A stretch of DNA of 64,000 nucleotides from Dethiosulfovibrio peptidovorans (GTDB lineage: Bacteria; Synergistota; Synergistia; Synergistales; Dethiosulfovibrionaceae). The position numbers and the translations under genes were made by a program. Below the pieces are notes generated by a model that made no database searches, was not told the origin of the DNA, and saw only the letters and a program-made list of their open reading frames with translations. The stretch is taken from positions 94,356 through 158,355 of the forward strand of contig PDTB01000021.1 in assembly GCA_002748665.1 (NCBI GenBank). The letters are read 5' to 3'. Of this stretch, positions 14,009 through 30,706 are shown one piece after another (positions within the stretch are counted from its first letter, which is position 1; each line of letters opens with the position of its first letter).

Positions 14009-14764
14009 TTACTTAGCTTGCTCCCATATGCCTAAGTTCATGGAAATTCTAGAACACGTGTCTTTGAGCTCAGGGATGAGTTCCCGCATCGACTGTTCGT
14101 CGAATCTGACTGTTGGAGCCGCTACGGACAGACAGCCAAAAATCCTGTGGGGGGGTTCGAATATCGGTACTGCTACGGATATAACCCCTTCTTCTCTCTC
14201 CCCATGGCTTAGAGCATATCCGTCTTTTCGAATGGCTGTGAGTTCTTGGAGAAAGGAGTCTCGATCAGTTATGGTCGCTCCGGTTATGGGGTAGGCTTTT
14301 GCGATTTCTCTGAGGGCGTATGCTTCATCCGAATAGGCCAATATACATTTTCCTCCTGCTCCTGCCCACAAGGGGAAACGGTCTCCCACTCTTACGACGC
14401 AAGACATGAAAAGGAGGCTCTCTACATGTTCGTAGCATACTCGATAATCATTCTCAAGCACATAGAGAGTGACGGCCTCCTTTGTTTTGTCCCGTATTTG
14501 TTTCATTAGGGGATAGGCATATTTTACCGCTGAAATATTATCCTTCGCCAGAAAACCATAATGATAGAGCTTAGGCCCCAGATAATAAGACTTGTTTTTT
14601 TTGTCTTTTTTAATAATTTGAAGGGCGAGAAGAGAGTTCAGTAGTCTGGACGTCGTGCTGGTCGAAAGGGCTACCTTCTCGGAGATGTCTTTCAAGGTGA
14701 GATGTGTTGAGTCCAAGGTAAAACAGTCTAAAATTGAAACGGCTCTATCTAAAACTCTTATCAA
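14009..14764 (-). CDS. IclR-family transcriptional regulator
   Basis: 251 residues. The N-terminal helix-turn-helix is 'LTLKDISEKVALSTSTTSRL', followed by the IclR effector domain with 'VGDRFPLWAGAGGKCILAY' and 'GYALSHGEREEGVISVAVP', where a small aromatic or keto acid normally binds. It is divergent from the large catabolic operon starting at 15483, so it is the likely regulator of that operon; many IclR proteins control aromatic, shikimate/quinate or glyoxylate catabolism. The start shown is TTG; the frame stays open upstream past a GGGAGGG, so the true start may be a few codons earlier at a rare codon. Repeat copy B sits in its upstream region. Confidence 0.9.
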   Translation of the reverse strand: MIRVLDRAVSILDCFTLDSTHLTLKDISEKVALSTSTTSRLLNSLLALQIIKKDKKNKSYYLGPKLYHYGFLAKDNISAVKYAYPLMKQIRDKTKEAVTLYVLENDYRVCYEHVESLLFMSCVVRVGDRFPLWAGAGGKCILAYSDEAYALREIAKAYPITGATITDRDSFLQELTAIRKDGYALSHGEREEGVISVAVPIFEPPHRIFGCLSVAAPTVRFDEQSMRELIPELKDTCSRISMNLGIWEQAK

Positions 14765-14838
14765 TTTTTCACTGGTATTTTTGATAGCAAATCCCTCCCA
14801 TGTAACGATATCCCAGATTTTATATAACAGTTGCTACA

Positions 14839-15095
14839 GGGCACCTCTAAAAACCTAACATCCGAGTTTCCCGGCCTCAGGTCGTTCCGCCAAAGCCCTG
14901 TCTCGCCTAAACGTATTCTTTGACCTGCCTGCTTCGTACCGTCGCCTCGAAGGGCACCTCCTGTGCCCTCTCGACTGGGACGACATCCGCCTCGTCCCAG
15001 TCGATACCGTCACGACGGCAGGTCAAAAATACGAACCTCGAATGGGCTCCGTCGAAACGACCTGAGGCGAGTTTCTGCGTTTTTTAGAGGTTCCC
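14839..15095 (-). repeat. Foldback repeat, copy B
   Basis: The best-preserved copy (257 bp), reversed relative to copies A and C. The ends GGGCACCTCTAAAAA and TTTTTAGAGGTTCCC are inverted repeats. The two halves remain alike inward: CCTCAGGTCGTT and AGCCC recur in both arms, and GACCTGCC (plus strand) is mirrored by GGCAGGTC. At the centre CGACTGGGACGA / TCGTCCCAGTCG is a perfect 12-bp stem, next to a second small stem GGGCAC-CTCCT-GTGCCC. It lies between the IclR gene and the catabolic operon, so it may influence either promoter. Confidence 0.85.
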
Positions 15096-15310
15096 TAATA
15101 TTCCTGCCCCAGATTGAACGAGGGGTGAGCCGTATATGGCTTTGCGATAAGAAGCTAGTGATTAATTGTTGGACTTTCTAGAGCTTAGTGACGAGGGAGA
15201 AGGACAACTTCAGAACCAATGTCTTCCCTATCTTTTTTAGGACATAACGATCCTAAACGGTGTTGGCAGAAAGATCAAGCCGATAGTCTCTGATATATTG
15301 TCTGAATTCC
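15096..15310. other. Intergenic region upstream of the catabolic operon promoter
   Basis: No gene is supported. The stretch between repeat copy B and the candidate promoter is AT-rich with short frames only. An IclR operator would be expected here or just downstream, but no unambiguous palindrome stands out; TGGTGGAAC / GTTGCCACA (about 15355-15375) is an imperfect dyad. Confidence 0.35.
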
Positions 15311-15339
15311 TTGACATTAGGGGGGAGTTGATGTATGTT
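15311..15339 (+). promoter_or_regulatory. Candidate promoter of the catabolic operon
   Basis: TTGACA (15311-15316), a 17-base spacer and TATGTT (15334-15339) form a good housekeeping-type promoter, with the same -35/-10 pair as the rpoB promoter at 51756. It would give a leader of about 135 bases before the TPP-enzyme gene. Confidence 0.55.
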
Positions 15340-15482: not shown

Positions 15483-17258
15483 GTGGACAGAGATTTGGTA
15501 GCCTTTCAGCTGGTTTGTTTTCTTGAGTCCCGTGGGGTAGAAAAAATTTTTGGTTTGTGTGGCCATACGGTGCTTGGCTTTCTTGATGCCTTGAGGGAAA
15601 GCAAGAAAATCGAGTTTATATCAGTTCGGCACGAACAAATAGCTGCCCACGCGGCAGATGGGTATGCCAGGGCTAAAAATAAAGACACCCCTGGAGTCCT
15701 CATGACCCATTTAGGACCTGGTTTGACCAACGCCACGACTGGCATAGCGGAAGCGGGACTGAACTCCATTCCTCTCGTTGTGATCGCTGGCGATGTTCCC
15801 AGCAGCTATTATGGTCGTCATCCTCACCAAGAAGTAAACGTCCACAGCGATGCAGCCCAGTTTGAGATATATAAACCTTTCGTAAAGAGAGCATGGCGTG
15901 TCGACCGTGCTGAGCTTCTACCGGAGATCATGGACAAGGCTTTTCGTCTGGCTGTGACCGGTCGTCCTGGTCCGGTTCTCGTGTCGATTCCCATGGATAT
16001 TTTCTCCGTAGAACTAGACGTTAAATTTTTCAACCGACGTTACGACAACATCCCTGAACTTCCCAAACCCAGTATGGATGTTTCTCAGGCTGAGAAGATA
16101 GCTAGACTCCTCGGCGAGGCAAAAAAACCTATCCTGTATGCTGGTGGGGGCGTTATTTCCAGTGGAGCCTCTCAAGTTTTAACTGGTTTGGCAGAACACC
16201 TCTCGTTACCTGTACTCTACAGTTTGATGGGTAAAGGATCTATATCGGATGAGCACCCTTTGGCTGTAGGTATGACCGGTTTTTGGGGGACAAGTTTTAA
16301 TAATTCGGTGGCGATGCAGGCTGATCTTATGATGGCGATCGGGACTCGCCTTTCTGAGGCAGATTGTAGTTCCTGGTATAGAAACGAGACTTTTAACATT
16401 CCTCCCACAAAACTCATCCATATAGATATAAATCAAGAAGAGATAGGTCGCAATTTCAAGACCGAGATTGGGGTGATCTGTCATGCTAAGAAGGCCCTTG
16501 AGGTAATTCTTGAGGCTGCCAGAAAGATATATCCCAACGGTGTTGAAAGGTCAGGAATAGTGACGTCCATAGCCGAAGCTAAAACTGCCTATCGAACGTC
16601 TCTCTTGGAAGCTCAAAAATCTGATCAGTTCCCTATGAGGCCAGAACGTATCTTGTTTGATTTAAGGGAAGTTCTCCCGAAAGATGGCTATGTCGTTGCT
16701 GATGTGGGCTGGAATAAAAACGGCGTAGGACAACAATTCCCCGTGTATGAGCCGGGAACGTTTGTTGCTCCCGGGGGCCTGTGTACTATGGGATATGGTG
16801 CTTCGGCCGCTCTGGGCGTTAAAGTGGCATGCCCGAATAAAAAAGTGGTCGCGCTTGTCGGTGATGGAGGAATGGGTGCCAATGTCTCTCCTCTTGCTAC
16901 TGCAGCTGAGAAGCACATTGCGGTTGTGTGGGTTGTCATGAATAACTGTGCTTTTGGTACCATTGCTGGTTTGGAATCTCAGCATTATGGGCATTCCTTT
17001 GGCACTCTTTTCGAAAAAGATGGGAAGCCATATTCCCCTGATTTTGCTGCCATAGCGAGGGCTTACGGTATAGGTGGTAAAAAGATCGAGTCAGCTGAGG
17101 ATTTCAAGCCTACCTTGGAAAAAGCGCTCGCTTTGAACGAACCCTATCTTATCGATGTCAGTATGGAGAATACTCCTGTCGTTACGGCAGGGTGCTGGAA
17201 TATAAACGATATATACACTAAGAGAGGGGAGCGTCGTTCAGAGAGGGTATGGGAATGA
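15483..17258 (+). CDS. Thiamine-diphosphate-dependent enzyme (acetolactate-synthase-like superfamily)
   Basis: 591 residues with the three-domain layout of the superfamily. The catalytic Glu is in 'SVRHEQIAAHAADGYARA' near residue 48. 'GPGLTNATTGIAEA' follows, a middle domain ('KPILYAGGGVIS') comes next, and the C-terminal ThDP/Mg motif is 'GDGGMGANVSPL' running to 'VMNNCAFG'. Members make or break C-C bonds next to a carbonyl: carboligases, decarboxylases, and ring-opening diketone hydrolases such as IolD. It lacks an adjacent ilvN-type regulatory subunit and sits in a catabolic operon, so biosynthetic acetolactate synthase is unlikely. I see no sulfoacetaldehyde-acetyltransferase signature. 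The start is GTG after GAGGGAA. It overlaps aroD by the bases ATGA. The reaction is unknown. Confidence 0.85.
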   Translation: MDRDLVAFQLVCFLESRGVEKIFGLCGHTVLGFLDALRESKKIEFISVRHEQIAAHAADGYARAKNKDTPGVLMTHLGPGLTNATTGIAEAGLNSIPLVVIAGDVPSSYYGRHPHQEVNVHSDAAQFEIYKPFVKRAWRVDRAELLPEIMDKAFRLAVTGRPGPVLVSIPMDIFSVELDVKFFNRRYDNIPELPKPSMDVSQAEKIARLLGEAKKPILYAGGGVISSGASQVLTGLAEHLSLPVLYSLMGKGSISDEHPLAVGMTGFWGTSFNNSVAMQADLMMAIGTRLSEADCSSWYRNETFNIPPTKLIHIDINQEEIGRNFKTEIGVICHAKKALEVILEAARKIYPNGVERSGIVTSIAEAKTAYRTSLLEAQKSDQFPMRPERILFDLREVLPKDGYVVADVGWNKNGVGQQFPVYEPGTFVAPGGLCTMGYGASAALGVKVACPNKKVVALVGDGGMGANVSPLATAAEKHIAVVWVVMNNCAFGTIAGLESQHYGHSFGTLFEKDGKPYSPDFAAIARAYGIGGKKIESAEDFKPTLEKALALNEPYLIDVSMENTPVVTAGCWNINDIYTKRGERRSERVWE

Positions 17259-18034
17259 TGGATCGTCCTATGCCCTGCAATCCCTTGAAAATCAGAAATG
17301 CTTTACTAGGTGGACCTGTTCCCCTCATGTGTGTCCCTCTGGTTGGAAGGACAAGAGAAGAGGTCATGGTCGAGGTACAAAATCTCCCGTCTGTAAACCC
17401 AGATATCGTAGAGCTTCGGGTCGATGCATGGGAGAGCATAGAAAACGTGGACGATTCCATATTACTCCTTCGGGAGGTCCGTGGTGCTGTGGGGGAGCTT
17501 CCGATAATACTGACTTGTCGTGGACACTGGGAAGGAGGAATCAAGGCGGTTTCGGAGAGCGTTAAGGACAGTCTCTACTCCTGGGCGATTTCCGAGAGGG
17601 TCGTTGATTTAGTTGACAAGGAATTATCTTACGGCTATGAGAAACTTTCGGAGGTTAAATCCCAGGCGGAGAGTTCCGGGGTAAGACTTATCGTATCCTA
17701 CCATGATTTTTCCAAGACGCCTTCAGTCTCGTCCATCTATTCTCGATTGGCAGGACAGATCTATTGTGGTGCTGACGTGGCAAAAGTTGCTTTTATGCCT
17801 TGCTCCGAAGAGGATGTTCTTAACGTTCTTGAGGCCACTCTGGCAATTCGACGTGATTTTCCTGAAGTGCCTCTTATCGCGATGTCCATGGGAGTTTTGG
17901 GACAGAGCAGCCGTTTGATTGGAGGCCTGTACGGATCAGATCTCACCTTTGCTGTTGGGAGCGTCGAATCCGCTCCTGGGCAGATCCCGGTTGAAAAAAT
18001 GCGTGTTTTTTTTGATCTACTTTATCGTTTGTAA
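17255..18034 (+). CDS. aroD: Type I 3-dehydroquinate dehydratase
   Basis: Interconverts 3-dehydroquinate and 3-dehydroshikimate through a lysine Schiff base; cytoplasmic. About 259 residues, normal for the type I class. Motifs: 'VELRVDAWE' (Glu and Arg binding the substrate), 'SYHDF' (catalytic His), 'AKVAFMP' (Schiff-base Lys), then 'MSMGVLGQSSRL' and 'SVESAPGQIP' (Ser/Gln closing the site). I choose ATG 17255 because GAGAGGG is well placed and it gives an ATGA overlap with the previous stop; ATG 17249 is also in frame. The setting among transporters and catabolic enzymes, with aroE also present, suggests a degradative role instead of chorismate synthesis. Confidence 0.92.
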   Translation: MMDRPMPCNPLKIRNALLGGPVPLMCVPLVGRTREEVMVEVQNLPSVNPDIVELRVDAWESIENVDDSILLLREVRGAVGELPIILTCRGHWEGGIKAVSESVKDSLYSWAISERVVDLVDKELSYGYEKLSEVKSQAESSGVRLIVSYHDFSKTPSVSSIYSRLAGQIYCGADVAKVAFMPCSEEDVLNVLEATLAIRRDFPEVPLIAMSMGVLGQSSRLIGGLYGSDLTFAVGSVESAPGQIPVEKMRVFFDLLYRL

Positions 18035-18046
18035 GGGGGTAATACT

Positions 18047-18874
18047 ATGGCGCGAAGATACTCTCTTGCTCAACTTACCGTTCTTGGATGGGCTCCTCCC
18101 GATATGATTTACAATGCTCATGCTCTGGGTTATGACTGCGTAGGCATAAGATCCATCAGTATGGGTGTCAAGGGAGAACACGACTACAGTATAGATAAAA
18201 ATAAAGAACTGTTTGATCGTACCCGCCTCGCGATGGAAGAGACTGGTGTTGAGATTAACGATATTGAGCTGGCGAAAATAGCCGATGAGGTGGATGTTCG
18301 GATTTATGAGGGGGCTTTCGAAGCAGCAGCTAGTCTTGGAGTTAAGAACGTAATAAGCAGTATCTGGAGCGACAAAAGGGACTTCTATCTGGATCAATTT
18401 GCCTTGCTATGTGATTTGGCTGCTCAATACGACATCACGGTGAATTTGGAGTTTGTCACGTGGGCATCAGTCCGTACCTTGAAGGAAGTTAGGGATGTAT
18501 TGAATGTCGTCAAAAGAAAAAATGCTGGAATCATGGTGGATACCCTCCATTTCTATCGTTCTAAGGTCAGTCCATCGGAATTAGACGACTGCTCCCATGA
18601 TCTCTTCAGTATGGTCCATATTTGTGATGGTCCTGCTGAAATTCCGGACTGGGATGATAAAGAGAGTCTTATACATACAGGAAGGGACGAGCGGTATTAC
18701 GTAGGAGAGGGGGCTATTGATATAGCCAATATCCTGCGCCGTCTCCCTAGCGATATCGTTTTGGCTATAGAGCTTCCCCATCTGCAGAGGGAGAGCCAAT
18801 GGGGGGCCATGGAGCACGCCAAGCGTTGTCTCGTGACGGCTAAGGCATATATGAAAAAGGAAGGTCTTTTTTAG
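18047..18874 (+). CDS. Xylose-isomerase-like TIM-barrel enzyme (isomerase/epimerase or dehydroshikimate-dehydratase-like)
   Basis: 275 residues of the AP-endonuclease-2/xylose-isomerase fold. Likely divalent-metal ligands appear in order: Glu in 'VNLEFVTW', Asp-x-x-His in 'VDTLHFYRS', His in 'VHICDG' and Glu in 'LAIELPHLQ'. The same order occurs in IolE (inosose dehydratase) and AsbF-type 3-dehydroshikimate dehydratase. With aroD directly upstream (12 bases), a dehydratase or isomerase acting on dehydroshikimate or a related cyclic keto acid is attractive, but sequence alone cannot decide between this and a sugar isomerase. Confidence 0.8.
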   Translation: MARRYSLAQLTVLGWAPPDMIYNAHALGYDCVGIRSISMGVKGEHDYSIDKNKELFDRTRLAMEETGVEINDIELAKIADEVDVRIYEGAFEAAASLGVKNVISSIWSDKRDFYLDQFALLCDLAAQYDITVNLEFVTWASVRTLKEVRDVLNVVKRKNAGIMVDTLHFYRSKVSPSELDDCSHDLFSMVHICDGPAEIPDWDDKESLIHTGRDERYYVGEGAIDIANILRRLPSDIVLAIELPHLQRESQWGAMEHAKRCLVTAKAYMKKEGLF

Positions 18875-18907
18875 CATGTATTTTATTGAAAAGAGGGGAC
18901 ATGGAGC

Positions 18908-20329
18908 ATGGCAATGAAAGAAATAACTCCAGAACAGATCCAGGTTCTTGAGGAGTTGATAGAGAGGGCTCGCAGGGTTCAGAGCGTCATAGAGAACTAT
19001 GACCAAGACAAGGTTGATCGTATATGTAGGGCGGTTGCATGGGCTGCCGGTAATCCAGAGGACTTTGACAGGCTTTGTAAAATGGGCGTCGATGAGAGTG
19101 GTGCTGGGGATCGGAATGGGCGTTACGGCAAACGTCATAAGATTCTCGGAGTTCTCCGGGATGCTCTTAGACAGAAAAGTGTAGGTGTCGTAGAGGTCAA
19201 TAGTGAAAAGGGGATTGCGCGGTACGCTAAACCAGCTGGACTGATCACTTCTCTAATCCCCATGACTAATCCAGAGCTCACCCCCATTGTCACTGCCATC
19301 TACGCTTTGAAGGCCCGGGATGTTGTTGTTTTCTCGCCACATCCCAGAACGAAGATGACCACCTTCGAGGTTGTTCGATTGATGCGAGAGGGATTACGGG
19401 GCATTGGCGAACCGGAAGACTTTCTCCAGTGTGTTAAGTTTCCCACCATGGCTATGGTTAATAAGCTTATTTCTATGGGTGATTTAATAATGGCGACAGG
19501 TGGCCCTGCCATGACAAAAGCAGCTCATAGCTCCGGTAAGCCAGCCTACTGTTCTGGTGCAGGGAACGCTACCGTGATTTTTGATGAGACCACAGATATC
19601 GAAATAGCGGCAAAAAATACTAGAATTAGCAAAACATCTGACTTTGGGTCTGGCTGCTCTGCAGACGGAAATCTCGTGATCTACGGCGGGATATACGATG
19701 CCATGATACAAGCTCTGGAAAATGAGGGGGGATACTTGGCCAACGATGATGAGAGAGAAATGCTTAAAAAAGCGATGTGGGACGAAGAGGGGCATCGTAT
19801 TGTTAACACCGTTGCGGTGGCTCCTCAGGAGTTGGCAAGAATTGCCGGTTTTCAGATTCCCAGTGATCGTAAATTCATAATGGTGGTTGGTGATGGTATA
19901 GGCAAAGAATACAACTTTTCAGGAGAGAAACTGACGACCCTTCTTGCGCTTTATCGTTACGAGGGTGACTTTGAGAATGCTCTTAAAATGATAGATGGGA
20001 TCTACAAAGTGGGAGGTAGAGGTCACTCCTGCGGTATCTACAGTCACGATGATGAGCATATTCACCGTCTTGCTCTGAGGGCTCCCGTGACTCGTATAAT
20101 GGTTCGACAACCTCAATCTAAGGCTAATGCAGGAAGTGCCGAGAATGGTATGCCCATGACATCAAGTATGGGATGTGGAATCTGGGGGGGCAACGTGGTC
20201 TCAGAAAACATCGCACTCAAGCATTATATGCAAAGCACCTGGGTGGCTCGCCCTATAATGAGGGATCAACCCGAAGAAGCGGTGCTATTCGGGGAGTTTT
20301 TTGATTCCTCAAAAAAGAGGCTTGTGTAG
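18908..20329 (+). CDS. CoA-acylating aldehyde dehydrogenase (PduP/AdhE-N/SauS-like)
   Basis: 473 residues, NAD(P)-dependent oxidation of an aldehyde with capture as an acyl-CoA. 'MTNPELTPIVTAIYALKAR' and 'FSPHPRTK' are typical of acylating enzymes (PduP, EutE, AdhE N-domain). The catalytic Cys is probably in 'SDFGSGCSADGN'. 'ATGGPAMTKAAHSSGKPA' is the cofactor-side loop. The product would feed substrate-level phosphorylation. The related sulfoacetaldehyde dehydrogenase SauS is a possible relative, but no other sulfonate genes are nearby. ATG 18908 was used, with an AG-rich stretch upstream; it is 33 bases after the TIM-barrel gene. Confidence 0.87.
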   Translation: MAMKEITPEQIQVLEELIERARRVQSVIENYDQDKVDRICRAVAWAAGNPEDFDRLCKMGVDESGAGDRNGRYGKRHKILGVLRDALRQKSVGVVEVNSEKGIARYAKPAGLITSLIPMTNPELTPIVTAIYALKARDVVVFSPHPRTKMTTFEVVRLMREGLRGIGEPEDFLQCVKFPTMAMVNKLISMGDLIMATGGPAMTKAAHSSGKPAYCSGAGNATVIFDETTDIEIAAKNTRISKTSDFGSGCSADGNLVIYGGIYDAMIQALENEGGYLANDDEREMLKKAMWDEEGHRIVNTVAVAPQELARIAGFQIPSDRKFIMVVGDGIGKEYNFSGEKLTTLLALYRYEGDFENALKMIDGIYKVGGRGHSCGIYSHDDEHIHRLALRAPVTRIMVRQPQSKANAGSAENGMPMTSSMGCGIWGGNVVSENIALKHYMQSTWVARPIMRDQPEEAVLFGEFFDSSKKRLV

Positions 20330-20434: not shown

Positions 20435-21442
20435 ATGAAGCGACTAATCCCTGTTTTAAGTGTTTTCCTCTTTTTGGGACTTTTAGTTGCTGCTCCTGTC
20501 TCTGCTAAGTATCCAGATAAAAATATTAACGGTTACATTTCTTGGGGGGCTGGTGGTGGAACGGACAACGCGTCCAGAGCCTTAACTCCTCTGGTGGAAA
20601 AGATTATAGGCGGTAAAATTGTTTTGCAAAACAAGCCAGGGGCTGCTGGGGCTCTAGCCACTACGATGGTGGCTAATTTACCTGCTGATGGTTACTCCAT
20701 TCTTTATAATGCCGAAGGTCCAGCACTTTACAAAGTCCTTGGATTGGGTACATACGATTACAATGATTTTGAAACGCTGTGTCTCATGGTTTTTGGTGTT
20801 GACGTAATATGTGTCAATCCGAAAACTCCGTACAAAACTCTTCATGAGCTTGCGGATGCGGCCAAGGAGAATGCCGGAAAGATTAGGATGGCGTCTACCG
20901 GAATCGGAGGTATCCCCTTTGTTATAGCCTCTATGCTCAAGAGTATGAAAGGCATAGAGTTCAACTTGGTCGGATTTGATGGTGACGGTTCAGGTATGGC
21001 AGCTCTTCTTGGCGGGCACGTGGAGGTCATGCCAATAAGTATGATGGGTGCTGGTACTGTGGATTTGATCAAGAGTGGGAAGCTTCGGCCCTTAGCGGTC
21101 GTCAGCGATAAGAGAGTCGAACAGCTTCCTGATGTGCCCTCCATCGTTGAGATTTATCCTGAATTTTCCCAATACCTCCCTATTGGTCACTTCTATGGGG
21201 CTTTTGTCAAAAAAGGAACTCCGCAGTCTATAGTTGATACGCTGAAGGTCGCTTATATGCAGGCTGTTAAAGACCCCTCATTTGTTGATTTTATTAAAAG
21301 ATTAAATGGTATTCAGCTGGCTATTTCGGGAGCGGAGGCAGATGCCTTCTTGAAGAAAAATCAATCTAACGTAACGTGGTTACTAGAGGAAGCTGGTGTC
21401 ACTAAAATTTCACCGGCTGAACTTGGAATTCCCAAACCTTAG
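20435..21442 (+). CDS. tctC: TTT transporter substrate-binding protein (TctC/Bug family), first copy
   Basis: Periplasmic binding protein of a tripartite tricarboxylate transporter, 335 residues. Signal peptide 'MKRLIPVLSVFLFLGLLVA' with cleavage after 'VSA', then 'KYPDKNINGYISWGAGGGTD', the canonical TctC N-terminus. 'NKPGAAGALATTMVANLPAD' is the second family motif and binds carboxylates. ATG 20435 is chosen for the signal peptide and the GAGGAGG upstream; the frame is open 25 codons earlier. Genes for TctB and TctA follow, behind a hairpin. A close paralogue lies at 29711. Confidence 0.93.
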   Translation: MKRLIPVLSVFLFLGLLVAAPVSAKYPDKNINGYISWGAGGGTDNASRALTPLVEKIIGGKIVLQNKPGAAGALATTMVANLPADGYSILYNAEGPALYKVLGLGTYDYNDFETLCLMVFGVDVICVNPKTPYKTLHELADAAKENAGKIRMASTGIGGIPFVIASMLKSMKGIEFNLVGFDGDGSGMAALLGGHVEVMPISMMGAGTVDLIKSGKLRPLAVVSDKRVEQLPDVPSIVEIYPEFSQYLPIGHFYGAFVKKGTPQSIVDTLKVAYMQAVKDPSFVDFIKRLNGIQLAISGAEADAFLKKNQSNVTWLLEEAGVTKISPAELGIPKP

Positions 21443-23567: not shown

Positions 23568-24458
23568 GTGATTAAGAATAAGACTTTTTGGGCTGATACA
23601 GAATTTTTTGGCCTTCTTGGTCACCCTGTAAGGAAATCGATCTCTCCGGCCATTCATAACGCCAATTTTAAGTCTCTGGGGCTGAATGCGATCTACACTC
23701 CATACGAAACTACAGTTAAAACCCTCCCCAAGGTTATGGATGCTTTGGAGTCTATGCGTTTTAAAGGACTGAACGTGACCATGCCTCTCAAGCAAGAAAT
23801 CATACAATACCTTGATGAGTTGGATGAGCTAGCCTCTCTTTGTGATTCCGTCAACACAATTTACTGGAGGAATGGGAAAGTTTGTGGTTCAAACACTGAC
23901 GGAATTGGTTTTGTTCATGCTCTGAAGACGCAGGGCGAGTTTGATCCTGTAGGGAAACACTGTCTTCTCTTTGGGGCTGGAGGGGCAGCGAGAGGTGTCG
24001 CTTTTGCTTTATGTGGTGCAGGACTAAAATCCATTTCTCTTTGGGGAAGAAGAGCTGATTACGACATGATTCAAAGATTAGCCAGTGACCTGAATGCGTA
24101 TCGTTCGGATGTTTGTAAGGTCCAATCCACTGAACCTGGATATATTCCGCGACTCCTTAAAGAAAATGAATTGGTCATAAATGCAACTCCCGTGGGTATG
24201 GCACCCAGCATTGATAATGTCATATTTGATACCTCGTATTTAGAGAGGCAGCACATGGTTTGCGATTTAGTCTATGTACCCCACGATACACAATTGATAC
24301 GTGAAGCTGAGGCCAGAGGGGCGAGGACTCTCATGGGCTATTGGATGACTATTTGGCAGGGGGTAGAGTCTTTTCGTTGCTGGACTGGGGGCAAGGAGCC
24401 TGACGTAGAGGTCATGACTAAGACCATGCTGGAGTACTTGAAGAGAAAAGAGGAGTAG
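23568..24458 (+). CDS. aroE: Shikimate/quinate dehydrogenase
   Basis: NAD(P)-dependent reduction of 3-dehydroshikimate to shikimate, or the reverse, and possibly quinate oxidation as in YdiB. 296 residues. Substrate-binding motif 'GHPVRKSISPAIHN' with the SxS pair, catalytic Lys in 'NVTMPLKQEI', Asp in 'GSNTDGIGF', and the dinucleotide motif 'GAGGAARGVAFAL'. I use GTG 23568, which has TTGGAGGA ahead of it; the frame extends 22 codons upstream without domain character. Its place between tctA and an HMG-CoA-lyase-like gene argues for a catabolic role. Cofactor preference is unknown. Confidence 0.9.
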   Translation: MIKNKTFWADTEFFGLLGHPVRKSISPAIHNANFKSLGLNAIYTPYETTVKTLPKVMDALESMRFKGLNVTMPLKQEIIQYLDELDELASLCDSVNTIYWRNGKVCGSNTDGIGFVHALKTQGEFDPVGKHCLLFGAGGAARGVAFALCGAGLKSISLWGRRADYDMIQRLASDLNAYRSDVCKVQSTEPGYIPRLLKENELVINATPVGMAPSIDNVIFDTSYLERQHMVCDLVYVPHDTQLIREAEARGARTLMGYWMTIWQGVESFRCWTGGKEPDVEVMTKTMLEYLKRKEE

Positions 24459-24460
24459 TC

Positions 24461-25369
24461 GTGTTGTTTAGCGCTCTGCCTGATGAGGTCATTATATGCG
24501 AGGTCGGGCCAAGGGATGGTTTGCAGAATGAAAAGATGCTCCTTTCCGTGGAACAGAAGGTTTCCCTTATAGAAGGCATTGTTGATGCTGGAGCCCAGTG
24601 TGTAGAGATTGGGGCCTTTGTCCATCCTAAGGTAGTACCCTCAATGGCTGATAGTGACGAGGTTGTGAAGAGGCTTGGTGAAGAACCGTATGGTGTGGAA
24701 TATAGAGGTTTAGCGCTTAATCTTAGAGGTGTTGAAAGGGCATATGAGGCTGGCCTCACTAGAGTCAAAGTATCTGTTTCTGCTAGTCCAACGCATTCGA
24801 GGCAAAACAGCAATGCCAGTCCTGAAGAGGTGATGGTTGGTTTTGAAAGATGTGTTGCTTTTTGCCTTGAAAAGGGCGTCGGCCTGAGTGGGGCGATCTC
24901 GACGGCTTTTGGCTACTCTGTGGAAGGAGTTATTCCTCTAGATTCTATCTATCCTATCGTCGATGCCTATCTCAATCTGGGAGTAAGTGAAATATCCATG
25001 TCGGATACCACGGGAATGGCCCATCCTAAGCAGGTTTACCAATATATGAGTGCACTCATCAATCGTTATCCCTCTGTTACTTGGACGGCCCATTTTCATA
25101 ATACGAGAGGAATGGCGTTGGCCAACATATATGCTGCTTTGAACGCTGGAGTGTCTCATTTTGATTCCTCTTTCGCTGGACTGGGGGGATGTCCTTTCGC
25201 TCCTGGAGCATCAGGTAACGTAGCCACTGAGGATGTTGTCAACATGTTGGAAACTATGGGGGTCAAGACTGGATTCAATATCGATAAAGTTCTTGCCGTG
25301 GCCAGAATGGTTGAGGGCTATGTTGGACACCCTGGGGATAGCTTCATGCTGAAGGTTTGTCAACGCTAA
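24461..25369 (+). CDS. HMG-CoA-lyase-like aldolase
   Basis: 302-residue TIM-barrel lyase of the HMGL/pyruvate-carboxyltransferase superfamily. Strong HMG-CoA lyase signatures: 'EVGPRDGLQNEK', 'MSDTTGMAHPKQ', 'AHFHNTRGMALAN' (metal-binding His pair) and 'GLGGCPFAPGASGNVATED' with the conserved Cys. The family splits 3-hydroxy-3-methylglutaryl-CoA or related 3-hydroxyacyl-CoA compounds to acetyl-CoA and a keto acid. In this operon it probably cleaves a branched acyl-CoA produced from the imported substrate. GTG start, AGAGGAG upstream, 2 bases after the aroE stop. Confidence 0.9.
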   Translation: MLFSALPDEVIICEVGPRDGLQNEKMLLSVEQKVSLIEGIVDAGAQCVEIGAFVHPKVVPSMADSDEVVKRLGEEPYGVEYRGLALNLRGVERAYEAGLTRVKVSVSASPTHSRQNSNASPEEVMVGFERCVAFCLEKGVGLSGAISTAFGYSVEGVIPLDSIYPIVDAYLNLGVSEISMSDTTGMAHPKQVYQYMSALINRYPSVTWTAHFHNTRGMALANIYAALNAGVSHFDSSFAGLGGCPFAPGASGNVATEDVVNMLETMGVKTGFNIDKVLAVARMVEGYVGHPGDSFMLKVCQR

Positions 25370-25418
25370 TATGAACATGAATGTTATTTGTCAGTTATGA
25401 ATGAAGGGCGGCTTGACG

Positions 25419-26591
25419 ATGAAACAAATCTCGATAGGTATCATTGGGAGCGGTTTTGCATCTCATCTTCACTGTAAATATATGTCTCAGGTTGCTGGGG
25501 TATCTCTTCGGATGAAATCTATAGCAGATATTGATCTCGAAAAGGCTAAGAATGTCGCGGATCTGTATGGATTTGATTCCTACTACGAGGATTACAGGCG
25601 TATGTTGGATGATCCAGACATAGATGTTATCCACATTTGTACGCCACCTTTTTTGCACTCTTCCATGGTTTCGGAGGTCTTGTCGTCTGGTAAACACGTG
25701 ATCTGTGAAAAACCTCTGACCGGTTATTTTGGAAAAGGAGAAGATTGTTCTCTCATTGGCGATACGGTGCCTAAATCGGTGATGTTTGAAGAGGTACAGA
25801 AGGAACTTGCCGAGATTGAGGAATCTGTGCGTTTAAGCGATAAGATATTCATGTATTCTGAGAATTATGTTTACTCGCCTAATGTTCAAAAAGCAGCTGA
25901 AATACTCCATGCTAAAAAGAGTAAAATATTATTTATGAAAGGAGAGGAGAGTTTAAAGGGATCAACATCTCCTGTTGCTGGCTCTTGGGCTAAGACTGGC
26001 GGAGGCTCTCTTATCCGTGTGGGATGTCACCCTCTTGGAGGAATCTTGTGGCTGAAGAAAGAACAGGCCAAGGCCAGAGCCGAGGTGATCGGGGTGAAAA
26101 GTGTATTATGTGACACGGCAAGGCTTACCCCGTTTCTTAGTGATTATGAACATAGGCATATCGAAGTTAGACCTGAGGACGTGGAGGATTTTGCCTCTTT
26201 GATCGTTACTTTTACGGATGGCACTAAAGCTTTGATCATAGCAGGAGACGTAATGCTTGGAGGTACAAAGAACTATGTTGAAATATATTCAAACGATTCT
26301 GTTTTGAATTGCAAGATAACTCCTTCAAATAATTTGAATAGTTACATACTAGATGAAGATGGTCTTGAGGGGGTGTACATATCGGAGTTATTGCCCTCAA
26401 AGATCGGTTGGCAAAGGCCTTTTGTTGCGGAGGGTGTTCTCCGGGGGTACGTTGGTCAGTTTCAGGATTTCATGGAGTGTGTTGCTACGGGAAGAAAGCC
26501 CCTTTCTGATTTTGACTTGGCAAGACAAGTTACGGAAGTGATATATGCTGGATACCTCTCAGCTGAAGAGGGCAGGTCGGTAGAGATCTGA
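25419..26591 (+). CDS. Gfo/Idh/MocA-family oxidoreductase
   Basis: 390 residues. N-terminal Rossmann domain 'ISIGIIGSGFASHLHCKY', then 'DVIHICTPPFLHSSM' and the family-typical 'GKHVICEKPLT' with the catalytic Lys. The C-terminal alpha/beta domain carries 'IRVGCHPLGGILWL', whose His is in catalytic position. These enzymes oxidise or reduce a hydroxyl group of sugars, inositols or cyclitols with NAD(P). ATG 25419 is preferred over ATG 25401. Within this operon it is a good candidate for the first oxidation of a cyclic polyhydroxy acid. Confidence 0.88.
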   Translation: MKQISIGIIGSGFASHLHCKYMSQVAGVSLRMKSIADIDLEKAKNVADLYGFDSYYEDYRRMLDDPDIDVIHICTPPFLHSSMVSEVLSSGKHVICEKPLTGYFGKGEDCSLIGDTVPKSVMFEEVQKELAEIEESVRLSDKIFMYSENYVYSPNVQKAAEILHAKKSKILFMKGEESLKGSTSPVAGSWAKTGGGSLIRVGCHPLGGILWLKKEQAKARAEVIGVKSVLCDTARLTPFLSDYEHRHIEVRPEDVEDFASLIVTFTDGTKALIIAGDVMLGGTKNYVEIYSNDSVLNCKITPSNNLNSYILDEDGLEGVYISELLPSKIGWQRPFVAEGVLRGYVGQFQDFMECVATGRKPLSDFDLARQVTEVIYAGYLSAEEGRSVEI

Positions 26592-26725
26592 AAAGTTGCC
26601 TGCTCCACGGTGACTGATAAAAGACGTTATGTTGAAGCAATGATTATTTTAATTTTGGTCTTTGTGTCTGCTGAGAGGTCGCTGGGCTGTCAGTGCCGTT
26701 TAACAGCTTTTCGGAGGTGATGTTC
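26592..26725. other. Short intergenic gap before the second TRAP set
   Basis: About 130 bases with no gene, hairpin with T run, or clear promoter. The operon could continue through it, because all flanking genes point the same way. Confidence 0.35.
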
Positions 26726-27220
26726 GTGAGGATTTTGATATGGCTGGACGACCACCTTGAGGAGTATGTATTGAGCGGCCTTCTCGTGATGATGGCTAGT
26801 ATTGTGATTCTCCAGGTATTCATGAGATATGTATTTAACAACTCACTATCATGGGCTGAGGAGGCTTCTCGGTATGCTTTTGTTTGGTCTGCCTTAGTTA
26901 GCATAGGTTATAGCATTAAACAGAAAAACATATTGAGTGTGGAGACGTTGATTGATTTGCTCCCCGTAACTCTCGGGAGGTCTTTAGTAAGGCTGAACAA
27001 TTGTATTGTGTTCTTTTTCTTCAGTTATATGTTTATTGCCTCGACACCGGTGTTGCAGAAGATTATCAGAAGTAACCAAACAAGTCCGGCTTTAAAAATC
27101 CCTATGGGTTGGGTCTATCTGTCTGCGTCGGTAGGTTTCCTTCTCGCTACTTTACGAGCGGGGCAGCGTTTACAGGTTTATTTTAGACAATCAAACAAAG
27201 AGGGGAGGAATGAAGGGTGA
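26726..27220 (+). CDS. TRAP transporter small permease (DctQ family), second set
   Basis: 164 residues with four predicted helices: 'YVLSGLLVMMASIVILQVFM', a middle segment holding 'SWAEEASRYAFVWSALVSIG' (conserved Glu pair), then 'FFFFSYMFIAST' and 'GWVYLSASVGFLLATL'. GTG 26726 is 8 bases from TCGGAGG and is preferred; ATG 26720 is too close to that site. It overlaps dctM by the bases GTGA. Confidence 0.88.
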   Translation: MRILIWLDDHLEEYVLSGLLVMMASIVILQVFMRYVFNNSLSWAEEASRYAFVWSALVSIGYSIKQKNILSVETLIDLLPVTLGRSLVRLNNCIVFFFFSYMFIASTPVLQKIIRSNQTSPALKIPMGWVYLSASVGFLLATLRAGQRLQVYFRQSNKEGRNEG

Positions 27221-28506
27221 TTTTGTCGATGCTGATTATTCTCCTCTTTGGTCTCATTTTAGGGGTGCCTATCGTTGTGGCACTAGGTTTTGCCACGATC
27301 CTTCCGTCATTGTTTGATCCGTCTTTTACCGCCAACATACAGTACGTTATACGTTCTATAGTCAGTTCGTTGGACAGTACTCCGATGCTTGCAATCCCTC
27401 TTTTTATTCTTTCGGGAAATATCATGACTAGGGGAAAAATTTCCGAAAAACTTTTTAATTTTTTTGCCTATTTTATAGGAGATCGCACGGCTGGGCTTCC
27501 TATAACCACCATAGTTACCTGCCTCTTTTATGGAGCTATCTCCGGGTCAGGGGTTGCCACTACTGCGGCGGTGGGAGGTATGGCTATACCTTTTTTGATA
27601 TCTCTCGGTTACGACAAAGTTTATTGTGCTGCTTTGATAGCTACTGCAGGTAGTCTAGGTGTCATCATCCCCCCGAGCATACCGTTCGTAACCTATGGTG
27701 TCGTTACTGGTGTATCTATCGGTAGCCTTTTCGTGGCTGGTATTATCCCGGGCATCGTTATAGGGGTGAGTCTCATGGTTTATGCCTATATCTATGCTAG
27801 GCTCCATGGCGAAGACAAGGAGAGAATAGCTAAGAAAGTTCAGGAGCTGAGAGCCTGTGAGTTTATAGTTTTGCTGAAGCAAAGTTCTTGGGCACTCTTT
27901 GCTCCGGTCATTATTCTTGGGGGAATCTATGGAGGCATAGTAACCCCTACGGAGGCTGCGGCAGTTTCCGTTTTTTATGCGTTGTTTGTCTGTCTCGTAA
28001 TTTATAAAAGCCTCTCCTTCAAGGAACTCGGCGCGGTATTGGTAGAAACGGTAAGATCGTACTCTCCCATAGTTGTCCTCTTGGCCTTAGCGATTGTCTT
28101 TGGTCGTATTCTGGCCTTGCTTCAGGCTCCAGTAATGTTGAAGAATTTTGTACTCTCAAACTTTGCAGAAAATAAGTACGTTTTTCTTTTGGCTATTGAT
28201 GTCATTCTTCTTATATTGGGTATGTTCATGGATGTTGGACCGGCCATAGCTGTCCTTGCGCCTATGCTCCTGGCCTCTGCAGTCGCCCTAGGCATAGATC
28301 CTATACACTTGGGTATCATTATGGTGGTTACCTTAGCTGTAGGCATGGCAACGCCTCCCTTTGGAGTGGACCTTTTTGTGGCCGCTCCTTTAATAAAAGA
28401 GCCGGTTATCAAAGTAGGGATGAAGGCTGTCCCTTTCATTATGGCTTTTATTGTTGCCTTGCTTATTATCACATATGCTCCTAGCATGAGTCTGTTTTTT
28501 TTGTAG
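27217..28506 (+). CDS. TRAP transporter large permease (DctM family), second set
   Basis: 429-residue polytopic membrane subunit. Motifs: 'GAISGSGVATTAAVGGMAIP', 'ATAGSLGVIIPPSIPFVTYG', 'GGIYGGIVTPTEAAAVSVFY' and 'GMATPPFGVDLFVA'. The GTG start overlaps the dctQ stop (GTGA), with AGGGGAGG upstream. Gene order here is Q-M-P, unlike P-Q-M in the first TRAP set at 9478, so the two systems are not a simple duplication. Confidence 0.93.
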   Translation: MILSMLIILLFGLILGVPIVVALGFATILPSLFDPSFTANIQYVIRSIVSSLDSTPMLAIPLFILSGNIMTRGKISEKLFNFFAYFIGDRTAGLPITTIVTCLFYGAISGSGVATTAAVGGMAIPFLISLGYDKVYCAALIATAGSLGVIIPPSIPFVTYGVVTGVSIGSLFVAGIIPGIVIGVSLMVYAYIYARLHGEDKERIAKKVQELRACEFIVLLKQSSWALFAPVIILGGIYGGIVTPTEAAAVSVFYALFVCLVIYKSLSFKELGAVLVETVRSYSPIVVLLALAIVFGRILALLQAPVMLKNFVLSNFAENKYVFLLAIDVILLILGMFMDVGPAIAVLAPMLLASAVALGIDPIHLGIIMVVTLAVGMATPPFGVDLFVAAPLIKEPVIKVGMKAVPFIMAFIVALLIITYAPSMSLFFL

Positions 28507-28615
28507 TTTAAATTTTGTTTTTAAGGGAGGTAGTTCAAGCTTCATTGACCTCAGATTGTTTCTGGAGATCTGCAGAAGGTCTTGGGGGCCATAAAATAAA
28601 AGGAGGGTGATTTAG

Positions 28616-29638
28616 ATGTGCAGTAATATTTTTAAGCCTTTGTTTGTGCTGTTGATGGTTGTATTGATCGTCAGCTTTGGATTGTCTGGAGACAGTCTGG
28701 CTGCTCCTAAATATACGCTGCAGCTGGCGGGAGCGTATCCGTCTACAGGGGGTACACCAAGGGCTTTAGCCACGGAAAAGATCAAGGAGCTTATCGAAAC
28801 CAAGTCGGGTGGTAATATCACGGTTAACATATATCTCGATAACCAGCTTGGTGGGGATAGGGAAATTCTTGAGTCATGCCAGTTTGGAGATATTGCTATG
28901 GTCTCTCAAACTACAGCTCCTCAAGTCGCTTTTATCCCTGAACTAGCGATTTTTGATATTCCTATGCTTTTTGACGATTTGTATATTGCGAAAAAAGCTT
29001 TATCTGGGGCTCTACGGCAAGAGCTGAACAGGTGGTATGAAAAAGCGGGGTTTAAATTGCTTCTTTTTGAACCGATTTACTACCGCGAAACGACGAGCAG
29101 AAAATCCCTCAAGCGAGTCGAAGATTTTAAAGGTTTGAAAATACGTACAATGGAGAATGAATATCACCTGGCCTTCTGGGAAGCTCTTGGTGCCAATCCC
29201 ACACCGCTTAATTTTGCGGAACTCTACGTTGCGTTGCAGCAAGGTCTCGTGGATGCTCAAGAAAATCCGTACGAGGTTATCTGGGCTGCAAAATTCTATG
29301 AGGTACAGAAAAAACTCGTGAATACTCATCACATTGCGTTCATCCTAAGCATTGTTATGAACAAGGATAAGTATGATGAGATGCCCAAGGCCTATAAGAC
29401 GACAATTGATGAGAGTATGGAGGAGGTCGCCGATTTCCTGTTTTCTCTCGCGAAGTCCCAAAATGACGGAATGCTTGTTGAGCTTGAAAAGGTCGGTATG
29501 GGTGTTGAGACCCCAGATGCAGAATTGAAAGAGGAGTTGCAAAAAGCTGCTGCTGTCGTTGAAAAAATGATCCGAAAGAAGGTCGGCAACGCTGCGGTGG
29601 ATTCTCTTATGCGGTCCGTTGAAGAAGCAAAGAAATAG
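28616..29638 (+). CDS. TRAP transporter substrate-binding protein (DctP family), second set
   Basis: 340 residues, exported. Signal peptide with hydrophobic 'PLFVLLMVVLIVSFGL' and cleavage near 'SLAA'. DctP features: 'GNITVNIYLDNQLGGDREIL', 'FKGLKIRTMENEYHLAFW' (substrate-carboxylate Arg) and 'ELYVALQQGLVDAQENPYEV'. AAAGGAGGGTG precedes the ATG. The substrate is unknown; by position it should be an intermediate or alternative substrate of the same pathway as the TTT system. Confidence 0.92.
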   Translation: MCSNIFKPLFVLLMVVLIVSFGLSGDSLAAPKYTLQLAGAYPSTGGTPRALATEKIKELIETKSGGNITVNIYLDNQLGGDREILESCQFGDIAMVSQTTAPQVAFIPELAIFDIPMLFDDLYIAKKALSGALRQELNRWYEKAGFKLLLFEPIYYRETTSRKSLKRVEDFKGLKIRTMENEYHLAFWEALGANPTPLNFAELYVALQQGLVDAQENPYEVIWAAKFYEVQKKLVNTHHIAFILSIVMNKDKYDEMPKAYKTTIDESMEEVADFLFSLAKSQNDGMLVELEKVGMGVETPDAELKEELQKAAAVVEKMIRKKVGNAAVDSLMRSVEEAKK

Positions 29639-29710
29639 TTTTGTGCAAATTATGACGTTATGTTGGGTTTGTTGAAAATATTTTTCATAAAACCTTAAGG
29701 GGGGAGCAGG

Positions 29711-30706
29711 ATGAGGAAGTTTTTTGTTTCGATTTGTTTTTTGCTTATTAGCGTAAATCTTTGTTTTGCTGCATATCCTGATAAGAACTTGCATGGTTAC
29801 ATAATGTGGGGGGCTGGCGGAGCTATGGATAACGTGGCCCGTGCTATTACGCCCCTAGTAGAAGAGTATCTGAACAGAAAAATCATATTGCAAAATCGAA
29901 CTGGTGCTACAGGAGCTGTAGCTACGACTTTTGTTGCAAATCAACCTTCAGATGGATATACGATCCTTTTTGGAGCGGAAAATCCTAATCTGTATAAAGT
30001 GACGGGTTTGTCTCAAATTGATTATGATCAATTCGACCCCGTGTTGTTGATGATGGCTAATGTCGGTGTTGTCATGGTTGGCAAAGAATCTCCTTATAAA
30101 AATTACAAAGATCTTATAGACGCTGCCAAATCTGGAAAAATCATAAAGATGGGCTCTACCGGCCCTGGTGGGTTACCCTTTGTGGCGAATACAATGATAG
30201 AGAAAATTCATGGTATAGGCTCTTTCAGCAAAGTCCGTTTTGACGGCGAAGGTCCTTGTATCACTGCCTTGATGGGAGGGCATATTGATGCGGTTGTTGT
30301 CGGGGTGCTTGCTGGAGAGAGCTTTATAAAATCCAGAGCGCTGAAAGGGTTAGCTGTCCTTTCTACCAAAAGGCTACCGGAGATGGATATGGTCCCCGCT
30401 GTGACAGAATTTTTCGATGCCTATAAAGACTATCTTCCTTGGGGAGCCTTTTTTGGAGCTTTTGTTAAGAAGGGGACTGCGGAAGATAGATTAGCTGTAC
30501 TTCGAAGTGCTTTTGTGAAAGCATATGAAGATCCTAGATTTGATGAACTGGCTAAAAACATGGGAGGTGTAAAGCTTGGATTAACAGGTATAGAGGCTAG
30601 AAAGTATATAGAACAAAATAAATCCGTGAGTGCGTGGCTTCTTTATGATGCTGGAGGAGCTAAATTTTCTCCTGATTCTTTTGGGATAAAAAGGCTTGAG
30701 GATTAG
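29711..30706 (+). CDS. tctC: TTT transporter substrate-binding protein (TctC family), orphan second copy
   Basis: 331 residues, exported (signal 'FFVSICFLLISVNLCFA'). It starts 'YPDKNLHGYIMWGAGGAMD' and carries 'NRTGATGAVATTFVANQPSD', closely resembling the TctC at 20435, which suggests duplication. No second tctA or tctB is present, so it may share the membrane complex at 21507-23512 with a different substrate range. It is the last gene of the run; a bidirectional hairpin follows. GGGGGGAGCAGG precedes the ATG. Confidence 0.9.
   Translation: MRKFFVSICFLLISVNLCFAAYPDKNLHGYIMWGAGGAMDNVARAITPLVEEYLNRKIILQNRTGATGAVATTFVANQPSDGYTILFGAENPNLYKVTGLSQIDYDQFDPVLLMMANVGVVMVGKESPYKNYKDLIDAAKSGKIIKMGSTGPGGLPFVANTMIEKIHGIGSFSKVRFDGEGPCITALMGGHIDAVVVGVLAGESFIKSRALKGLAVLSTKRLPEMDMVPAVTEFFDAYKDYLPWGAFFGAFVKKGTAEDRLAVLRSAFVKAYEDPRFDELAKNMGGVKLGLTGIEARKYIEQNKSVSAWLLYDAGGAKFSPDSFGIKRLED

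Follow-up and report, generated by a model that had tools for sequence, protein, structure and literature searches.

A candidate operon of Dethiosulfovibrio peptidovorans for fermentation of quinate and shikimate without an aromatic intermediate

Plants and diets commonly contain quinate, shikimate and their esters, and cultures that ferment quinate and shikimate without aromatic intermediates were reportedly described by Brune and Schink in 1992. To our knowledge, no genes have been assigned to this metabolism. A locus of Dethiosulfovibrio peptidovorans raises the question of what substrate is served by a gene cluster that places AroD and AroE beside a thiamine diphosphate (ThDP)-dependent enzyme, an acylating dehydrogenase and a lyase. 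The window, the whole stretch of 64,000 nucleotides analysed here, covers positions 94,356-158,355 of the forward strand of contig PDTB01000021.1 (assembly GCA_002748665.1). The answer proposed below is based on genes, conserved catalytic residues, linkage and missing chorismate pathway genes: the cluster probably acts on a hydroaromatic compound of the quinate/shikimate class and does so without an aromatic intermediate. This substrate class is fairly well supported, while we infer all of the reactions and their order.

The initial annotation read the locus as an IclR gene and 14 same-strand genes, and both the open frames and the profile matches of their products bear this out (Table 1). The IclR gene lies on the minus strand, divergent from 14 plus-strand genes at 15483-30706. 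Gaps within the run are short or negative, with overlaps between the ThDP and AroD genes and between TRAP Q and M and only 2 nt between AroE and the HMG-CoA-lyase-like (HMGL) gene, and the order from IclR to the second TctC is retained in congener locus L087. The run is taken here as a predicted operon. Promoter-like and terminator-like counts are not above those of shuffled sequence. The small membrane subunit TctB scores 39.2 against a profile cut-off of 29.1.

Table 1. Predicted genes and sites of the candidate operon, in window coordinates
Feature	Position	Strand	Basis and remarks
IclR-family regulator	14009..14764	-	profile match; divergent arrangement also in congener loci L087, L089
ThDP-dependent enzyme, proposed 1,2-dione ring-opening hydrolase	15483..17258	+	profiles; E51, H28, H76
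Type I 3-dehydroquinate dehydratase AroD	17249..18034	+	profiles, catalytic residues; proposed 3-dehydroshikimate-3-dehydroquinate link
Xylose-isomerase-like TIM barrel, proposed 3-dehydroquinate 4,5-dehydratase	18047..18874	+	profiles, conserved residues
CoA-acylating aldehyde dehydrogenase (SauS/AdhE-like)	18908..20329	+	profile match, Cys250
TctC substrate-binding protein 1	20435..21442	+	profile match
TctB small membrane subunit	21507..21971	+	profile match; start codon chosen by the analyst
TctA large membrane subunit	22010..23512	+	profile match
AroE-family dehydrogenase, proposed shikimate dehydrogenase	23568..24458	+	profiles, residues; start codon chosen by the analyst
HMG-CoA-lyase-like enzyme, proposed homocitryl-CoA lyase	24461..25369	+	profiles, residues
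Gfo/Idh-family dehydrogenase, proposed quinate dehydrogenase	25401..26591	+	profiles
TRAP transporter Q subunit DctQ	26720..27220	+	profile match
TRAP transporter M subunit DctM	27217..28506	+	profile match
TRAP transporter P binding protein DctP	28616..29638	+	profile match
TctC substrate-binding protein 2	29711..30706	+	profile match
Best promoter-like match 5' of operon, TTGACA-17-TATGTT	15311..15339	+	consensus match only; such sites no commoner than chance

Three of the enzymes fall within their families by score and by residues, each counted in the window protein and its full-length relatives. The active site of type I 3-dehydroquinate dehydratases consists of Glu, His and a Schiff-base Lys; AroD is a predicted member (TIGR01093, 187.9 bits against a cut-off of 139.3), with E95, H152 and K179 in 18/18. 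AroE likewise classes with the shikimate dehydrogenases (TIGR00507, 231.6 against 200.2), and the catalytic Lys and Asp of that family correspond to K75 and D111, present in 40/40. HMG-CoA lyases use an Arg, an Asp, two His, a Cys and an Asn; the HMGL-like protein, placed in that subfamily by its profile (311 bits, cut-off 246), has R18, D19, H211, H213, C244 and N253 in all 28 sequences. The aldehyde dehydrogenase (ALDH) is closest to acylating SauS and its Cys250 occurs in 52/52, but it was rejected as the sulfoacetaldehyde enzyme itself (425.9 bits, below the equivalog cut-off of 600). The ThDP enzyme has three TPP domains in a profile search, and E51, H28 and H76 are invariant in 31/31 aligned sequences; it falls short of acetolactate synthase (TIGR00118, 423.1 bits, equivalog cut-off 538.35). 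Finally, the Gfo/Idh dehydrogenase, encoded in 15/82 related loci, is not inositol dehydrogenase IolG by score (73.2 bits, equivalog cut-off 355).

A search across genomes shows how far these genes travel together. Profiles were run on 82 loci with a related ThDP enzyme, 40 of which extend 5 kb or more to each side of the ThDP gene, and in most of these 40 the enzyme is linked with ALDH (30), TIM barrel (28), AroE (28) and a lyase (31: HMGL in 24, citryl-CoA lyase in 8, both in only 1). AroD occurs in 11, AroQ in 5 and QuiC in 3; at least one of these or AroE is found in 31/40. The ThDP, ALDH, TIM and a lyase gene together with an aro or QuiC gene are all present in 24 of the 82. In five loci AroQ stands in for AroD, separated from the ThDP gene by 8.6-9.6 kb, and none of the five has both. 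This conserved linkage supports the earlier reading, in which the substrate is hydroaromatic, the ThDP enzyme opens the ring and the products are acyl-CoA. The nine well-flanked loci without AroD, AroE, AroQ or QuiC count against it: the ThDP gene stands alone in two (L053, L067), with only ALDH in four (L054, L058, L075, L078), with ALDH and citryl-CoA lyase in L050, with ALDH and TIM in L069, and with the whole core in L028. Among ten stretches from other genomes of the phylum, L090 combines AroD, ThDP, ALDH and Gfo but lacks TIM and lyase, whereas in L094 only AroD is present, with contig ends nearby. Record titles include the cultured genera Acidaminococcus, Oscillibacter, Lutispora, Anoxynatronum and Castellaniella.

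The exchange of lyases is informative about the chemistry. Citryl-CoA lyase takes the place of HMGL in nine loci, where the gap to the ThDP gene ranges from -6 to 3746 nt; the three relatives tested all score above the curated cut-off, and the ThDP tree requires at least two changes of lyase type. Both types act on a common substrate class, 3-hydroxyacyl-CoA with a tertiary carbon, and their swaps point to a 3-hydroxy-3-carboxyacyl-CoA intermediate. Breaking 3-dehydroquinate between C3 and C4, which opens the ring, would give a lyase substrate of this type. In Azoarcus and Castellaniella loci a CoA transferase stands in place of the acylating dehydrogenase; there the route would need a further step to the free acid, a point against the proposal.

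In the proposed pathway, quinate and shikimate would be imported by the operon's transporters and fermented. Quinate would be oxidized to 3-dehydroquinate, here perhaps by the Gfo/Idh enzyme and in relatives by AroE-like enzymes, and shikimate would be converted by AroE to 3-dehydroshikimate, which AroD would hydrate to 3-dehydroquinate. This use of shikimate requires AroD to run opposite to its usual direction, a point against the proposal. The metal-dependent TIM barrel may then remove the C5 hydroxyl, with chemistry as in IolE and 3-dehydroshikimate dehydratase, to form 1-hydroxy-3,4-dioxocyclohexane-1-carboxylate, a non-aromatic 1,2-dione that would be unable to aromatize because C1 retains its hydroxyl. 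Hydrolysis of the dione by the ThDP enzyme would yield homocitrate semialdehyde, the acylating dehydrogenase would convert this to homocitryl-CoA, and the HMGL-like enzyme, a homologue of homocitrate synthase, would release acetyl-CoA and 2-oxoglutarate. Carbon balances, as do electrons (quinate 28 = acetate 8 + 2-oxoglutarate 16 + 2 NADH 4), and the genome has two matches to methylmalonyl-CoA mutase. The roles proposed for the lyase and for the TIM barrel as a dione-making dehydratase are new relative to the initial annotation. It seems reasonably probable that a retro-Claisen step yields acetyl-CoA and a 2-oxo acid; the full version through the dione, homocitryl-CoA and 2-oxoglutarate has an even chance. 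Slightly short of even is the broader claim that the complete pathway, in which the homocitryl-CoA lyases belong to two unrelated families, one HMGL-like and the other resembling citrate synthase, occurs in Synergistota, Clostridia, Acidaminococcus and some Proteobacteria. It was not found in the literature searched, nor were homocitryl-CoA, homocitrate lyase or homocitrate semialdehyde.

The same substrates and retro-Claisen end could be reached differently, if the TIM barrel were an IolI-like isomerase or an epimerase and the ThDP enzyme cleaved a hydroxyketone by a retro-acyloin reaction; the products would be acetyl-CoA and a C5 2-oxo acid with the 4-hydroxyl retained. The TIM barrel (PF01261, 57.7 bits, cut-off 31.1) has IolI, which we take to be an isomerase, as its best profile match in the PDB (E 1.4e-20), ahead of QuiC1 (8.5e-11), with AsbF also matched. 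The ThDP active site, too, is unlike that of cyclohexane-1,2-dione hydrolase (CDH). CDH membership was judged on H28, H31, H76 and N484, of which H28 and N484 are known as CDH variants and H31 and H76 are presumably active-site residues; H28 aligns with H28 and the catalytic Glu is aligned, but H31 and N484 are not conserved, CDH H76 does not align with the family's H76, and identity is 26%, so the enzyme was rejected as a CDH by sequence. This difference and the IolI match count against the preferred pathway as well. Against this route, KDPG/KHG aldolase is unmatched in the genome (controls match in 8/14), leaving 4-hydroxy-2-oxoglutarate without an obvious outlet, and no aldolase was recognized on inspecting the neighbourhoods, where a minority of the neighbouring frames were compared with a family library. 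We consider it unlikely.

Less likely again is that AroD and AroE are biosynthetic and lie by chance within an operon whose substrate is some other acid, cyclic or branched. The whole-genome search found a single AroD and a single AroE, both the operon copies, a situation that the initial annotation had said would mark them as the biosynthetic ones. The first part holds and the second does not, as the remaining chorismate pathway genes searched for are missing as well: aroB, chorismate synthase and AroQ are unmatched in the window genome (controls match in 13/14, 14/14 and 7/14, respectively), and chorismate biosynthesis was therefore rejected as the role of these copies, which strengthens the hydroaromatic reading, as does the AroQ replacement. 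Genomes G050 and G064 likewise lack matches to all three, and their AroD lies next to the ThDP gene or 5 kb away from it. In the 81 phylum genomes without chorismate synthase, the ThDP enzyme occurs in 19/21 with AroD versus 23/60 without, as raw counts that ignore kinship. Five loci with AroQ and three with QuiC also speak against chance. The window AroE has both motif Ser residues (S24, S26); the second is Ala in 25/40 locus AroE proteins and N69 is altered in all 25, a form from which biosynthetic AroE differs. Other observations favour biosynthesis. Both aroB and chorismate synthase occur in each of the five congeners examined; in four (G039, G041, G053, G081) the sole AroD adjoins the ThDP gene and AroQ is absent, which makes an additional biosynthetic role of AroD probable in them, while G052 has an aroE-aroD pair outside any such operon. 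PDB matches of TRAP-P and TctC2 name no ligand for the window's proteins. Five of the 82 loci (L020, L024, L028, L049, L066) keep ALDH, TIM, ThDP and a lyase without AroD, AroE, AroQ or QuiC in the stretch examined, only L028 reaching 5 kb or more on each side and the other four being short-flanked. Such an aro-free version had been set beforehand as refuting, and it does weaken the hydroaromatic link, yet it is expected if the core begins at 3-dehydroquinate. In a change from the initial annotation, AroD and AroE seem to be entry steps and not part of the core.

The least probable reading is the classical route, in which the TIM barrel acts as 3-dehydroshikimate dehydratase and makes protocatechuate downstream of the classical enzymes AroD and AroE, and the ThDP enzyme, dehydrogenase and lyase have other roles. 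The active site of that dehydratase (QuiC/QsuB) comprises R64, E134, D165, H168, Q191, R210 and E239 (PMC7442255). The TIM barrel shares the metal site, H168 and R216 with QuiC1 (E135, D165, E242, R216 and H168 matching E134, D165, E239, R210 and H168). E135, D165 and E242 with R213 and R216 are present in 46/46 sequences, H168 is found in 35 and Tyr in 11, and the position of QuiC1 Q191 holds His (H191) in 42 and Gln in 4. The NCBIfam QuiC model matches weakly (24.4 bits, cut-off 1200), though it covers a two-domain protein, and the QuiC homologues adjoining the ThDP gene in L032 and L017 have seemingly lost the metal ligands of their dehydratase domain, so that in L032 a window-type TIM barrel could stand in. 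This route nonetheless leaves the commonest neighbours (ThDP, ALDH, lyase) without explanation, the alignment gives QuiC1 R64 no counterpart, which also counts against the preferred dehydratase role, and a genome search confined to PF06050, a family that presumably holds benzoyl-CoA reductase subunits, gave no match (controls match in 2/14).

The preferred pathway is a balanced, stepwise hypothesis that names its genes, and these occur in cultured genera; its steps are therefore open to assay one by one. If true, it would add two enzyme activities, dehydroquinate 4,5-dehydratase and homocitryl-CoA lyase, and a single hydroxyl would settle an aromatic or non-aromatic fate. Compared with the hydroaromatic pathway from quinate and shikimate to protocatechuate (QuiC/QsuB/AsbF), the operon shares enzymes of the AroE and AroD types and a TIM barrel that depends on metal and whose metal site matches; it differs by the addition of a ThDP enzyme, a CoA-acylating dehydrogenase and a lyase of the retro-Claisen type, and its TIM barrel scores far under the QuiC cut-off. 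CDH is alike in the proposed opening of a 1,2-dione ring and differs in the residues and identity given above. The lyases keep the catalytic residues of HMG-CoA lyase or, in relatives, pass the citryl-CoA lyase cut-off, and differ in their proposed substrate. Inositol catabolism proceeds through IolG, IolE/IolI, IolD and an acylating dehydrogenase. Its order of enzyme classes is alike, from Gfo/Idh dehydrogenase and TIM barrel to ring-opening ThDP enzyme and CoA-acylating dehydrogenase; the operon's Gfo, however, is far under the IolG cut-off, and AroD, AroE and the lyases are foreign to the inositol route.

The operon was recovered as the initial annotation had described it, an IclR gene and 14 plus-strand genes, from open frames and from profile searches with Pfam and NCBIfam. 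The two libraries confirm the gene families, and Pfam also identifies the transporter subunits. Residue counts in alignments show that the catalytic residues of AroD, AroE, the CoA-acylating aldehyde dehydrogenase (ALDH) and the HMG-CoA-lyase-like enzyme (HMGL) are intact and kept among relatives, and the whole gene order recurs in L087, a locus of a same-genus relative (congener). PDB matches of TRAP-P and the second TctC are not diagnostic of ligand, and scans for promoters and terminators near the operon gave counts no higher than in shuffles.

Features in and around the operon (window positions)
Feature	Position	Strand	Basis or identity
IclR gene	14009-14764	minus	open frame
14-gene run	15483-30706	plus	open frames
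260-bp MITE-like repeat, between IclR and ThDP genes	14836-15100
Further repeat copy	1612-1864		89.5% identity
Further repeat copy	50615-50852		84% identity
Genes directly upstream of operon	8783-13159

The repeat between the IclR and ThDP genes has 16-nt terminal inverted repeats that are 94% complementary. The genes directly upstream encode a GntR-type regulator, a second TRAP transporter and a metallo-beta-lactamase-fold protein, family libraries having been run on the last alone, and possibly form a separate unit. Between about 6800 and 30706, G+C is 45.2% in the operon and 43.8% in the upstream part, with flanks at 56.7% and 54.1%; the same operon has 53.1% in L087 and 51.7% in L089, also a congener locus. 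The contrast suggests that it was acquired separately.

The D. peptidovorans genome (2.06 Mb in 48 contigs, listed as 100% complete) holds a single AroD and a single AroE, both inside the operon by genome-wide search. The initial annotation had held that the absence of any other aroD or aroE would make these the biosynthetic copies. The absence was borne out; the biosynthetic role was rejected, because aroB, chorismate synthase and AroQ have no match anywhere in this genome. The same searches matched chorismate synthase in 14, aroB in 13 and AroQ in 7 of 14 control genomes. Likewise, two phylum genomes (G050 and G064) give no match for any of the three and keep AroD beside the ThDP gene or 5 kb from it. 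In each of the five congeners that were searched, both aroB and chorismate synthase are present. Since congeners G039, G041, G053 and G081 combine chorismate synthase with a sole AroD that adjoins the ThDP gene, and show no match for AroQ, their AroD probably serves both biosynthesis and breakdown. In congener G052 an aroE-aroD pair stands apart from any operon of this type.

The association extends across the phylum. Among 149 genomes, a set that overlaps the GTDB loci described below (the nearest named of those loci are Synergistaceae, and some contigs are common to both by coordinates), the ThDP enzyme, scored at E 1e-100, occurs in 54, AroD in 47 and chorismate synthase in 68. Where chorismate synthase is missing (81 genomes), the ThDP enzyme is found in 19 of 21 genomes with AroD versus 23 of 60 without (p 3e-5, kinship ignored); where it is present, the figures are 11 of 26 versus 1 of 42 (p 5e-5, kinship likewise ignored). 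Thirty genomes hold both AroD and the ThDP enzyme, and in 13 of them the two genes are no more than 1 kb apart.

With the ThDP protein as query, a GTDB contig search supplied the best 80 of 133 loci, which with two plasmid loci made 82 whose neighbouring genes were counted by tblastn. These 82 loci contain ALDH (63), the xylose-isomerase-like TIM barrel (49), HMGL (39), citryl-CoA lyase (9), AroE (39), AroD (17), AroQ (5), QuiC (3) and Gfo (15). The co-occurrence that the initial annotation proposed to check was counted at the 40 loci whose ThDP gene is flanked by 5 kb or more on each side: ALDH is present in 30, the TIM barrel in 28, HMGL in 24 and citryl-CoA lyase in 8, a lyase of either type in 31 (both in one, L084), and any of AroD, AroE, AroQ or QuiC in 31. 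The nine lacking all four of the latter are L028, L050, L053, L054, L058, L067, L069, L075 and L078. L053 and L067 have the ThDP gene alone, and L028 keeps the whole core, which weakens the proposed link to hydroaromatics. Two of ten stretches fetched from phylum genomes (L090 and L094) have AroD without TIM barrel and lyase. In G013, a genome with no match for chorismate synthase, the module lies on two contigs, AroE-TIM-AroD-HMGL-TRAP (L092) and ThDP-ALDH with TctA/TctC (L093). Named carriers among the best 80 of 133 loci include Synergistaceae, Clostridia, Acidaminococcus, Castellaniella and Amylibacter. Lutispora thermophila, Oscillibacter valericigenes and Castellaniella defragrans are carriers available in culture. 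A methylisocitrate-lyase-like gene of the PrpB family, found in 4 of the 82 loci, stands between ThDP and HMGL in Acidaminococcus (L079:11936-12796; L070 from 11924). No gene set of this kind was found in the literature searched, which included few subscription journals; PMC10054779 predicts a quinate-to-chorismate route in a rumen bacterium.

Individual parts of the module are exchanged between loci. Azoarcus KH32C has the order split QuiC, CoA transferase, citryl-CoA lyase, ThDP, AroE, AroD, and a TIM gene of the window's type lies some 13 kb away. In Castellaniella, genes for a CoA transferase, a citryl-CoA lyase and the ThDP enzyme stand together, with AroQ 8.7-9.6 kb off on the opposite strand. 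L032 contains QuiC, citryl-CoA lyase, TIM barrel, ALDH and ThDP, and L015 citryl-CoA lyase, AroD and ThDP. A ThDP tree of 84 rows, built by a quick method with 24 of its 81 inner branches open, implies two or more changes for each of three traits: the type of lyase, of activation and of DHQase. HMGL-like enzymes and citryl-CoA lyases both cleave tertiary 3-hydroxyacyl-CoA to acetyl-CoA and a keto acid, so their exchange suggests that this cleavage is the lyase step. AroE varies as well: 15 of 40 proteins at the loci, the window's included, keep the second motif Ser, and the other 25 have Ala, with N69 changed in all 25. The Ala type is read from these residues as putative quinate dehydrogenases. 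The AroE of L046 has a shikimate dehydrogenase as its best PDB match, and YdiB and quinate/shikimate dehydrogenases rank lower, an order that does not single out quinate as the substrate.

The proposed mechanism is inferred from family chemistry. The TIM barrel would first remove the C5 hydroxyl from 3-dehydroquinate, giving a 1,2-dione unable to aromatise; removal of this type is the chemistry of IolE and 3-dehydroshikimate dehydratases. Opening of the dione would yield homocitrate semialdehyde, to be converted to homocitryl-CoA and cleaved to acetyl-CoA and 2-oxoglutarate. With the ring of 3-dehydroquinate cleaved between C3 and C4, the new acyl group would stand beta to C1, which bears the tertiary hydroxyl and the carboxyl; this is the substrate type of HMGL-like enzymes and citryl-CoA lyases. 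3-Dehydroshikimate is without the C1 hydroxyl. The electron balance of the route closes (28 = 8 + 16 + 4). Because KDPG/KHG aldolase (PF01081) has no match in the window's genome, 2-oxoglutarate fits better than a hydroxylated lyase product, and a route through 4-hydroxy-2-oxoglutarate and KHG aldolase is disfavoured. For a 2-hydroxyglutaryl-CoA route from 2-oxoglutarate, PF06050 has no match in the genome; methylmalonyl-CoA mutase was found instead.

It is improbable that the TIM barrel is instead a 3-dehydroshikimate dehydratase forming protocatechuate, although room is left for this by the QuiC homologues near the ThDP gene (L017:11805-13697 and L032:5016-6779), which seemingly have lost metal ligands of the dehydratase domain and keep the HPPD-like domain. 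The best PDB match of the TIM barrel profile is IolI (1.4e-20), followed by 2g0w and QuiC1 (8.5e-11), with AsbF (2.1e-7) lower. Of the QuiC1 active-site residues listed in PMC7442255, counterparts are E135, D165, H168, H191, R216 and E242, with His at position 191 in place of Gln; sequence comparison found none for QuiC1 R64. For the ThDP enzyme, which in the preferred route through 3-dehydroquinate would open the dione, the known system is cyclohexane-1,2-dione hydrolase, whose H28 and N484 variants are described in PMC12247030. H31 and N484 of that hydrolase are not matched in the window's enzyme, and H28 and the catalytic Glu are common to both.
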